In this document: positions 9,062-14,483 of the stretch, piece by piece
Layout: each line of letters opens with the position of its first letter
Numbering within the stretch: the stretch's first letter is position 1
Origin: Sodalis sp. CWE
GTDB lineage: Bacteria; Pseudomonadota; Gammaproteobacteria; Enterobacterales; Enterobacteriaceae
Assembly: GCF_019646055.1 (NCBI RefSeq)
Contig: NZ_JAESFE010000001.1
Coordinates: 450,466 to 514,465 of the forward strand
DNA length: 64,000 nucleotides
Direction of reading: 5' to 3'
Notes under the pieces: generated by a model
Told to the model about the DNA's origin: nothing
The model's input: only the letters and a program-made list of their open reading frames with translations
Database searches by the model: none
Program-made: the position numbers and the translations under genes

Positions 9062-10216
9062 TTATATAGAACGAAGTTTTGTTATTGCTTTCTTAACTTG
9101 ATTAACAGCGTATTCTATTTCTTCACTAGTGGTAAAACGTCCTAAAGAAAAACGAATAGAACAATGAGCAAGTGTATCTTCTATCCCCATAGCTCGCAAA
9201 ACATAAGATGGTTTGAGAGTAGAAGAAATACAAGCAGATCCTGTTGATACAGCTAAATTTTTTAGGGCAAGAATAAGAAGTTCACTATCAACAACATTCT
9301 TAAAACTAACGTTCAATATTGTTGCTAAATTTTGATGTAGCGTTCCATTTAGTATTACTCCACCAACCTGGTTTAATCCTTCCCATAACTGATTACGGAG
9401 AATTTTAAGTCGTGGCATTTCGTCCCCAATTTTTTGAGCTGCAATACGACAAGCCTCACCCATTCCAACAATCTGATGTACAGGTAACGTTCCAGCACGT
9501 ATACCTTGCTCTTGATTGCCTCCATGTATTTGTGCTTTAAGACGTACTGGTGGAGTTCGACGTATAAACAAACCACCAATACCTTTTGGTCCGTATATTT
9601 TATGTCCGCTAAAAGACATCAGATCCACTGGAAGTTTTGCAAGATCGATGGGAAGTTTTCCAATACTTTGGGTAGCATCCGAATGAAAAAGTACTTTACG
9701 GACACGACATAAGTTACTAAAAGCTGCAATATCGTGGATCACTCCGGTTTCATTATTAACATGCATTAAAGACACTAAAATGGTATCATCTCGTAAAGCA
9801 TCACTTAACTGATCCAGAGAAATAGAACCATTTTTTGCTGGAGATAATCTTGTTATAGAAAATCCTTCTTTTTCTAGTTGCCAACAAGTTTCTAGTACTG
9901 CTTTATGCTCAGTCATGGCTGTAATGATATGTCGTCCCTTGGAAAGATTAGCATAAGCAGCCCCTTTAAGAGCCAAATTATTAGATTCAGTTGCTCCAGA
10001 AGTAAAAATAATTTCTCGAGAATCACTACCAATCAATTTAGCAACATGATTTCGTGCAATATCCACCGCCTCTTCTGCCAACCATCCGTAATAATGTGAA
10101 CGGGAAGCTGGATTACCAAAAACGCCTTTTATTGTAAGGTACTGCATCATTTTTTCTGCTACCTGTGGATCTGCTGGCGTAGTAGAAGAATAATCAAGAT
10201 AAATTGGTAATTTCAT
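9062..10216 (-). CDS. iscS: Cysteine desulfurase IscS, lacking the usual C-terminal tail
   Basis: IscS is a pyridoxal-phosphate enzyme that takes sulfur from cysteine and passes it as a persulfide to partners such as IscU (clusters) and TusA (tRNA thiolation). The 384 residues show the cofactor lysine K206 in [10 protein letters not shown] and the persulfide cysteine C329 in STGSACISS. The first 384 residues align with E. coli IscS from [10 protein letters not shown] onward. The protein then stops at TKLRSI, about 20 residues before the E. coli end, which includes the segment known to contact IscU. No isc partner gene remains beside it. Retention for tRNA thiolation would fit the presence of tusE in this window; that role is an inference. 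Confidence 0.95.
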
Positions 10217-11416
10217 TAATATTAATTCTATGCAAGATAAATTGTTTCAATACAAAACTATGATATGCTAAAATCTTTTGTATTAATTAGTGTTAACATC
10301 AATGGTAATTTTATTACGATAAATCATCAATTGTATTAATTCTTTGAAAGAATTTATACTCAAAAAACCTGTATATACAATGTTGTGATCTTAACTCAAC
10401 TCAGTAAGAAGGTTCTGTGTAAATAAAAAAAAATTATTTTAATGAAATTTTAGAATAATATTTTTAACAGAAAAAGCCTAAGAAAACGAAGTAGGACAGC
10501 GTCGTCAATCATAAAAAACAGAAACTCTTTAGTGCTTTTAACTTATTCTAAATCAATTTCTAAAAACTATTCATTAATAAAGCTAACATATGGATAAAAA
10601 ATCGCATTTGCATAATAGTAACTGTAATTGTTTTACGCACCAGTTAGTATGCAATACCTATTTTAAGCGACTAGTTAATTCATAAAAGCAATTACTCGAG
10701 ATAATTTTACGAGATTTCTAAATATATTTTTTTGAGCTAGATCATGATGAAATCGAATTCAATAAAAATATGAAATATTCCTTACAGTTAATAATCGTTT
10801 GGCTAGCTGTCTTATAAGACTAAAAACTAAAACCTAGTATTTTTAATTATAACTCTAGTTCTTTGAAGAAGATTTTTATTTTCCTGTTGTAAGAATGAAA
10901 ATCAACTCAACACATAACAAAGAATTGATTTATTTTATTCAATATTCAGCTATGATGTAATATTTAGTGTTTGAAATCACCAAAAACTATATAAAGAGTA
11001 ATGATTGAGGACGATTACAATTCTGACATGTTTTTTACCAAAACTAAACTAATCACTGGTAACTGATTTCATTTAAGAAACAGAATTAAATTAAAAACTA
11101 TTAAACTTATCACTTAAGATATTTGAGATTGATTGGTTAGGAAGTTATACATATTACTATACAATTATTCATGTGCACTGTTAGTTATTATATATATTAT
11201 ATAGGTCGTTCTATTTTTTAACCTTTAAAAAAAACTACTATTAAATATAGAAAATTTTAAAATTAAACTGCATCCTATTGTTGAATAGATATCAAAAATT
11301 ACATAAAAAGTTATATGATAAAAAAATCGTAAATCTTCTAAAATTTTAGAATTATACAGCATAAGTTTGCACTGTTTTTATCCCAGAAAATTTAAATTTA
11401 ATTTAGTGGAAAACCT
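10217..11416. other. Gene-free stretch where iscR and trmJ would lie
   Basis: E. coli has iscR and trmJ between iscS and suhB. Neither can be recognised in these 1200 bases, which are AT-rich with no frame of note. No tRNA or obvious regulatory repeat is visible. Confidence 0.6.
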
Positions 11417-12247
11417 ATGCACCCGATGCTTAATGTTGCTACTCAAGCCGCAAGAAAGGCAGGAAGTTTAGTTATTAAATATTATGAAATTGTCGATTCA
11501 GTCATTGCTAGTAAAAAAAGCATGGCAGACTTTATAAGAAAGCTGAGTTGTGCGGCAAATCATTCAATGATCGATGTTATCCATAAGTATTATCCGCAAC
11601 ATGTTATTACCAACAAAGAAAAGAGTATTGTAGTGGGAAAAGATGCTACTGTCCAGTGGATTATCGATCCGCTTGACGGTAAAACTAACTTTACCAAACG
11701 TTTACCTCATTTTGCTATTTCTATAGTTGTATATATTAAGGGTCGTACAGCAGTTTCAACAATCTATGACCCTATTCGCAATGAACTTTTTACTGCAACT
11801 CGTGGTTATCATTCTCAACTTAATGGTTATCGTTTAAGGAGCAGTTCTGTAAGAACTCTAGATCATGCAGTCTTGGCTCCTGGATTTCTCTTTCAGCAAG
11901 AGCAAAATTTAAACGGCTATGCTACACTAGCGAATGAATTATTTATTCAATGCGCAGATTTTCGTCGTACCGGTTCTACCATTCTAGATTTAGCTTATGT
12001 AGCTGCTGGACGAATGGATGGTTTTTTTAAATTTGGCTTAAATTATTTAGACTTTGCTGGCGCTGAATTGTTAGTACGTGAAGCAGGGGGGTTAATCACC
12101 GAACTTACCGGCGAAGATTACGATTGTCTTCTTCCTGGAAACCTCATTGCCGGTAATCCCTGTATTATAAAAGCAATACTTTCTGTTTTAAAAAATAAAT
12201 TTCGTAAAAAATCCAGAAATAGTCATCACTTATTATTTGATAATTGA
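11417..12247 (+). CDS. suhB: SuhB, inositol-monophosphatase family, catalytic residues replaced
   Basis: In E. coli SuhB is an inositol monophosphatase and, separately, a partner of NusA in rRNA transcription antitermination. The 276 residues align without gaps with E. coli SuhB from MHPMLN through about residue 225. The metal-binding core keeps D84, L86, D87 and D212. However, the catalytic glutamate at 67 is lysine (TNKEK), the threonine at 89 is lysine (DPLDGKT), the aspartate at 44 is serine, and tryptophan 211 is leucine. These positions hold the metal and activate water in this family. R184 and the surrounding helix (RRTGS) are kept. A short extra tail follows residue 265. I infer that the phosphatase is inactive and that the transcription role is what is kept. 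Confidence 0.92.
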   Translation: MHPMLNVATQAARKAGSLVIKYYEIVDSVIASKKSMADFIRKLSCAANHSMIDVIHKYYPQHVITNKEKSIVVGKDATVQWIIDPLDGKTNFTKRLPHFAISIVVYIKGRTAVSTIYDPIRNELFTATRGYHSQLNGYRLRSSSVRTLDHAVLAPGFLFQQEQNLNGYATLANELFIQCADFRRTGSTILDLAYVAAGRMDGFFKFGLNYLDFAGAELLVREAGGLITELTGEDYDCLLPGNLIAGNPCIIKAILSVLKNKFRKKSRNSHHLLFDN

Positions 12248-13229: not shown

Positions 13230-14483
13230 TTAAAAATAAACGGGATAACAAGCACAAATACTTAGAACTTTATTTTTAATGCGTTTTAGCAAATTTTCAT
13301 TATAAGTACTTTCCAATATATCACACATCCAATTAGCCACATTACATACGTCAGACCCTGAAAAACCTCTTCTTGTTATTGCTGAAGTACCTACTCGAAT
13401 TCCAGAAGTTGTAAAAGCGCTTCTTTGATCATTAGGAATAACATTTTTATTAACAATAATATTACTCCGACTTAAAACTTCACTTGCTTCTTTACCAGAT
13501 AAATTTTTTTCTGTCAAATCCACCAAAAATAAGTGACTATCAGTTCCACCGGAAACAACCTTAAATTTTCGTGATAAAAAAACCATCGCCATAATTTGAG
13601 CATTTTTAATTACTTGCTGTTGATATGTTTTAAATGATGGCTCCATTGCTTCTTTTAATGCAACCGCTTTTGCAGCAATTACATGCATCAACGGTCCACC
13701 CTGTGTTTTAGGAAACACAGCAGAATTTAATTTATCGTATAAAATGTTATCACCATTTTTAACTAAAATTAAACCGCCTCGTGGACCAGCGAGTGTTTTA
13801 TGAGTAGTTGTAGTAACAACATGAGCATAAGGCAATGGAGTTGGATATATACCAGCAGCAACAAGGCCAGCTATATGAGCCATATCTACTAATAAATAGG
13901 CACCGATACTATCGGCAATTTGTCTCATTTTAATCCAATCAACTATCCTAGAATAGGCAGAAAAACCAGCAATAATCAGCTTTGGTCGGATGGTTATTGC
14001 TAATTTAGCTAAATGACTGTAATCAATACAACCATTTATATTGGTTTCATAAGAAAAACTATTGTATAACGCGCCAGAGAAGTTGACCAAGGAACCATGA
14101 GTTAAATGTCCGCCATGTTTCAGACTCATTCCTAATATTTTGTCTCCAGGTTTTAATAAAGCAGAATAAACAGCAAAATTGGCTTGCGAACCAGAATGAG
14201 GCTGTACGTTTGCATAATCAGCATTAAATAAGACCTTGGCACGATCGATAGCCAATTGTTCTATCACGTCAACATATTCGCATCCACTATAGCAACGTTT
14301 TTTGGGATAACCTTCAGCGTATTTGTTAGTTAACTTTGACCCCTGTGCTTGCATAACACGCAAGCTAGCGTAGTTTTCAGATGCAATTAATTCGATATAT
14401 TCTTCTTGGCGAATTTCTTCTTGTCTTATTGCTTGCCATAATTTACGATCATAGTCTGCAATATTTTTACTGTGCTTTAACAT
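13230..14483 (-). CDS. glyA: Serine hydroxymethyltransferase
   Basis: GlyA converts serine and tetrahydrofolate to glycine and methylene-tetrahydrofolate, the main source of one-carbon units. It has 417 residues, exactly the E. coli length, and aligns without gaps. The pyridoxal-phosphate lysine is K229 in TTTTHKT. D200 and H203 of VDMAHIAG bind the cofactor, and [11 protein letters not shown] lies at 96-106. The start [12 protein letters not shown] is the only reasonable one. The C-terminal end is shifted in sequence but not in length. It stands alone, with more than 1 kb of spacer upstream. Confidence 0.97.

Follow-up and report, generated by a model that had tools for sequence, protein, structure and literature searches.

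What is a SuhB protein kept for once much of its active site is gone? In E. coli, SuhB is an inositol-1-monophosphatase (IMPase) and also a Nus factor (structures 2qfl, 6ib7, 6ib8 and 6tqn). The suhB gene studied here lies in a 64,000-nt stretch of the Sodalis sp. CWE genome, which we call the window. This genome (G000) is made up of two contigs totalling 797,418 bases, and the bacterium is probably an insect symbiont. Judging from the sequence comparisons below, it is highly probable that the gene is a true suhB, that its product has lost IMPase catalysis, and that it is kept as a non-enzymatic subunit of the Nus complex (rRNA antitermination/RNA-chaperone function). The features of the locus are listed in Table 1; residue numbers are those of E. 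coli SuhB.

Table 1. Coordinates of suhB and its features in the window
Feature	Positions	Strand	Basis
suhB, SuhB/inositol-monophosphatase fold with degraded active site, 276 aa	11417..12247	+	ORF, profile matches, alignment, predicted structure
Region before suhB without autoregulatory boxA	11337..11416	+	motif search
Codon 44, Ser (AGT) replaces Asp44 of the family Asp/Thr pair	11546..11548	+	alignment, codons
Codon 67, Lys (AAA) replaces metal ligand Glu67	11615..11617	+	alignment, codons; ligand role from passages of PMC2080633
Codon 84, metal ligand Asp84 kept	11666..11668	+	alignment, codons
Codon 87, metal ligand Asp87 kept	11675..11677	+	alignment, codons
Codon 89, Lys (AAA) replaces Thr89 of DPLDGT	11681..11683	+	alignment, codons
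Codon 205, Lys (AAA) replaces substrate contact Glu205	12029..12031	+	alignment, codons; role from passages of PMC2080633
Codons 211-212, Leu (TTA) replaces Trp211; metal ligand Asp212 kept	12047..12052	+	alignment, codons
KAIL, E. coli K251-L254, mapped NusA-AR2 contact, kept	12170..12181	+	alignment; contact from passages of PMC6614801

The window protein belongs to SuhB according to the equivalog profile NF008027 (PRK10757; 344.7 bits, cut-off 332) and to the inositol monophosphatase superfamily according to PF00459 (178.3 bits, cut-off 27), in agreement with its fold. It is not a CysQ by profile TIGR01331 (57.9 bits, cut-off 228.8), and no second match to this profile at E<=1e-15 was found in the genome besides suhB. 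The gene is flanked by iscS-like (9062-10216) and glyA-like (13230-14483) reading frames, which by eye is the E. coli order. The initial annotation had assumed a gap-free alignment to E. coli SuhB; with the 6ib7 sequence this holds up to approximately residue 232, after which there is a one-residue insertion. Its claim of an intact fold agrees with the predicted structure: the AF2 model has a mean pLDDT of 82.6 and a pTM of 0.83, and its best Foldseek matches in the PDB (TM 0.82-0.86 to the query) include E. coli SuhB in 2qfl (0.85) and 6ib7 (0.82), 6ib8, and the rrnTAC chain 6tqn_T (0.84). Thus, the window protein resembles E. coli SuhB in family, predicted fold, synteny and the residues K251 and L254, and its genome also contains NusA with the acidic repeat AR2, NusB and boxA. 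It differs in that D44, E67, T89, E205 and W211 are replaced and in that no autoregulatory boxA precedes the gene.

The D44/T89 pair is presumably the one that activates water. For M. tuberculosis SuhB, passages of PMC2080633 describe metal binding by the equivalents of E67 (Glu83 there), D84, D87 and D212, and substrate contacts by those of E205 (Glu228 there), G88 and T89. Alignment and codons confirm all four substitutions pointed out previously (D44S, E67K, T89K and W211L) as well as the retention of D84, D87, D212 and R184. K34 is also kept, and E205K is a fifth active-site change that had been overlooked. With E67K, D44S and T89K, the protein lacks the full set of four acidic metal ligands and the Asp/Thr pair. 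A misalignment at position 67 was considered and rejected: over residues 60-80 the BLOSUM62 sum is 43 in register and at most -5 when shifted by one or two residues, and a register shift does not rescue Glu67. Since three of the four metal ligands are present, it is possible that the protein retains some metal binding, while phosphatase activity would be absent. In the window protein considered alone, 60 near-invariant columns are broken, and catalytic positions are not significantly overrepresented among them (Fisher p=0.24); the significance of the loss therefore rests on the comparison across genomes.

For this comparison 80 of 108 small genomes were sampled so that the small-genome genera were covered (some 30 congeners with small genomes were omitted). 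SuhB was present in 79 of the sampled genomes, and the query brings the set to 80 proteins from 53 genera, all from genomes below 3 Mb; these genomes would belong to host-restricted symbionts. At least one of the four metal ligands is gone in 77 of the 80 proteins, and all four are intact in just three (genomes of 2.2, 2.0 and 1.4 Mb). As in the query, fold columns are kept in the SuhBs of the other reduced Enterobacterales genomes, and in most of these proteins fewer ligands remain than in the query. In the 62 genomes below 1 Mb, zero to five of the seven catalytic residues remain (zero or one in 43), the 13 genomes of 1-2 Mb keep one to six, and two of the five genomes of 2-3 Mb keep all. 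Among genomes of at least 3 Mb in the query's family, all seven residues were found in 70 of 71 SuhBs (24/25 in the sample and 46/46 in an extra set made up of the best-scoring among the matches listed). The only one with a lost metal ligand is G127 (locus L145), which carries E67K alone in a 4.3 Mb genome and possibly represents an early stage of loss in a recent symbiont. Out of 38 named loci, 30 have all seven residues; five named symbionts are incomplete (two Serratia symbiotica, Gullanella, Sodalis sp. Ffu and Wigglesworthia), and E205 is missing from three other loci, in one case along with D84. An eroded SuhB catalytic site is thus not peculiar to the lineage of strain CWE, the only one considered in the initial annotation. 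In a phylogenetic tree (partial gene L141 left out) at least eight changes between intact and eroded states are needed, of which two are forced by well-supported branches; given this and long-branch attraction, the count of independent losses is approximate.

One may ask whether such proteins are still enzymes with an altered mechanism or substrate, in which D84, D87 and D212 hold the metal and lysines 67, 89 and 205 serve catalysis or substrate binding. The three ligands and K34 remaining in the window protein would fit this idea. However, D44 and T89 are both lost in 57 of the 80 small-genome SuhBs and at most one metal ligand is left in 55, and the replacements differ widely between lineages (T89 is changed to I, K, S, A, N, V, Q and others), which argues for release rather than for a new site. 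For the same reason an adaptive cationic pocket formed by the new lysines was rejected. The lysines are likely products of AT-biased mutation, and relaxed selection under this bias (GAA to AAA and the like) may have driven the active-site changes. We therefore give little credence to an altered enzyme.

If catalysis was released, the question is whether the active site was hit selectively or simply shared in a general erosion of proteins under genome reduction. The latter would be in line with identities to E. coli SuhB as low as 33% in the smallest genomes and with the loss of many non-catalytic columns. CysQ, the 3'(2'),5'-bisphosphate nucleotidase, shares the fold and the catalytic motifs with SuhB and was used as a control in 27 genomes harboring both genes (26 small genomes and G127; the set includes L175, which scores slightly under the cut-off, but not the fragment L176). 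At six catalytic positions, CysQ is intact in 162 of 162 cells, that is in all 27 genomes and unlike the SuhB of the window, but SuhB in only 46 of 162. A fully intact catalytic site was found in none of the 27 SuhBs, although their overall divergence is similar to that of CysQ. Thus, the loss of the catalytic site is not general erosion. Column retention points in the same direction: of 173 near-invariant SuhB columns, the seven catalytic ones rank among those most often lost, with a mean retention in small genomes of 0.29 vs 0.63 for the 166 others (p=3e-4), and among 36 columns common to SuhB and CysQ retention is 0.26 for the six catalytic positions and 0.76 for the other thirty.

General erosion is also contradicted by genomes outside the query's family. 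Of 22 further genomes, 21 were from other families of the order; the remaining one, G028 (query's family, 49% complete), has just a 92-aa piece of a broken suhB and was dropped. All seven catalytic residues are present in 15 of the 21. Two others have a single change (G055 D44A, G057 T89S), while G036, G038, G044 and G056 (5.1, 3.5, 4.6 and 1.7 Mb) have lost at least two metal ligands. The family of G036 consists of one genus, and all 11 of its species (4.4-5.2 Mb; L320-L330 in G036 and G416-G425) carry E67K, D87N, E205S and D212E; positions 44 and 89 are changed as well in eight of them, and K251 and L254 are kept in all. With a median dN/dS of 0.13 over 54 of 55 pairs, these SuhBs are under strong purifying selection. 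The idea that large genomes always keep the catalytic site is refuted by this genus together with G038 and G044, and the loss does not need genome reduction. We consider general erosion without a special release of catalysis even less credible than an altered enzyme.

Could suhB instead be an early-stage pseudogene on its way out? Some of the smallest genomes do lack the gene: among 21 genomes checked, 12 without any NF008027 match are 0.2-0.4 Mb in size, with a single exception of 0.5 Mb. Still, a SuhB match is retained in at least 375 of the 392 genomes of the query's family, and the window gene is an intact reading frame with conserved synteny and a score above the equivalog cut-off. With weighting by genus, no small-genome SuhB has lost W81, N91, P97, Y117 or E222. 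In 30 congeneric pairs of eroded SuhBs from 24 genera, dN/dS ranges from 0.12 to 0.51 and is below 1 in each pair, so these proteins are under purifying selection. We regard decay to a pseudogene as the least credible of the three alternatives.

The proposed retention of SuhB as a Nus subunit is consistent with the presence of its partners in the CWE genome. NusA (498 aa) has both acidic repeats; compared to a relative with a 4.6 Mb genome, AR2 is 61% identical, AR1 52% and the remainder 81%. NusB is encoded by a 156-aa reading frame (146 bits), and upstream of the one 16S gene found there are a perfect boxA (TGCTCTTTAACAA) and a boxC core (TCTGTGTGG) with the usual spacing. According to passages of PMC6614801, mutation of K251 or L254 in SuhB lowers the affinity for AR2 more than 1000-fold, and both residues are present in the window protein. 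Binding of SuhB to NusA and a function at boxA are therefore probable in strain CWE as well. The same passages state that AR2 also binds the alpha-CTD of RNA polymerase, and thus the presence of AR2 is not specific for SuhB, and that SuhB is able to enter the complex without AR2.

The initial annotation had called for a comparison of selection on active-site and NusA-contact positions. Retention in the small genomes is 0.66 for K251 and 0.70 for L254, about that of the average conserved column (0.63), and hence these data argue only weakly, if at all, for a special protection of the NusA contact. In the 80 genomes searched for NusA, AR2 is present in 57 and absent in seven of those with SuhB, and present in four and absent in 12 of those without (p=1e-6; the 12 include one genome that yielded no NusA). 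Counted by genus the ratios are 47/6 and 4/3 (p=0.06), four SuhB-less genomes retaining AR2. SuhB and AR2 thus appear to tend to be lost together. Position 254 is Leu in one of seven SuhBs from AR2-less genomes vs 40 of 55 with AR2 (p=0.005), and position 251 is Lys or Arg in three of seven vs 46 of 55 (p=0.03), neither value being corrected for relatedness or for the multiple versions of the comparison; in stricter and looser versions, uncorrected likewise, p is 0.21 for exact Lys at 251 and 0.08 for L/I/M/V at 254. An rRNA leader with boxA followed by boxC, each with at most two mismatches, was detected in 16 of 21 genomes with SuhB (CWE included) and in two of eight without; 30 genomes were queried, of which two yielded no 16S gene. 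The five SuhB-containing genomes failing in this search are G082, G087, G147, G033 and G021.

Several observations on the Nus factors of other genomes are worth recording. In eleven very small SuhB-less genomes (G083, G208, G354, G409, G125, G235, G308, G369, G221, G295 and G359) the NusA match stops before AR2, and in several of them it reads through stop codons. NusB is apparently shortened or split in G124, G234 and G123, and in G118 the NusB search matches only a longer RsmB-like frame.

Despite the perfect boxA of the rRNA leader, no boxA was found within 80 nt of the ATG of the window suhB. In the large genomes checked, a boxA is located 24-38 nt before suhB. It is present in 25/25 large, 6/18 mid-size and 4/61 small (<1 Mb) genomes, counted without the partial gene L141, and in all 46 further large genomes (the best-scoring among the matches listed). 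Ten genomes of the eroded size classes thus retain it, and at L071, L084, L093, L095 and L100 a perfect boxA precedes a SuhB missing catalytic residues. According to passages of PMC5725501, boxA-dependent autoregulation of suhB is common in enterobacteria but not universal, and its absence therefore does not define the family.

Taken together, the earlier suggestion that this lineage kept SuhB only as a transcription factor fits the fold predicted to be intact, the NusA (with AR2), NusB and boxA found in the genome, the residues K251 and L254, and the selective loss relative to CysQ. The word "only" goes further, since it is an interpretation and the AR2 contacts are no better kept than average. 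That the two functions can be separated was already known from the bench, since passages of PMC4807359 report that the growth defects of E. coli suhB mutants do not accompany the loss of IMPase activity; in the same passages, Singh et al. (2016) left open any link between the rRNA role of SuhB and its phosphatase activity. In symbionts, a metabolic model of Buchnera omitted suhB as unconnected to biomass (PMC2649895, in the part concerned), and the relevant part of a Blochmannia reannotation placed an inositol-monophosphatase-like protein in the inositol pathway (PMC1360075). Among the open-licence PMC papers listed, we found no prior report of the pattern of catalytic-site loss in SuhB. What is new is the natural scale of the separation of functions and the CysQ control.

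Our data suggest that the RNA-related job of SuhB is the indispensable one. We think it probable that SuhB combines two proteins that can be separated. The phosphatase would be dispensable, linked to lifestyle and retained by almost every large Enterobacteriaceae-type genome checked, while the Nus role would be held by selection; many lineages, including a large-genome genus of another family, would independently have made it a dedicated pseudo-phosphatase transcription factor for rRNA. This raises the question why the catalytic site is kept in 70 of the 71 large enterobacterial genomes checked; we know of no evident metabolic need for the SuhB phosphatase in E. coli. When the metabolism of symbionts is reconstructed, suhB should not be counted as an inositol phosphatase gene. 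The eroded SuhBs amount to many naturally occurring separation-of-function variants. Last but not least, repeated loss of the site combined with purifying selection amounts to a natural experiment, according to which the rRNA role of SuhB needs no phosphatase in evolution.
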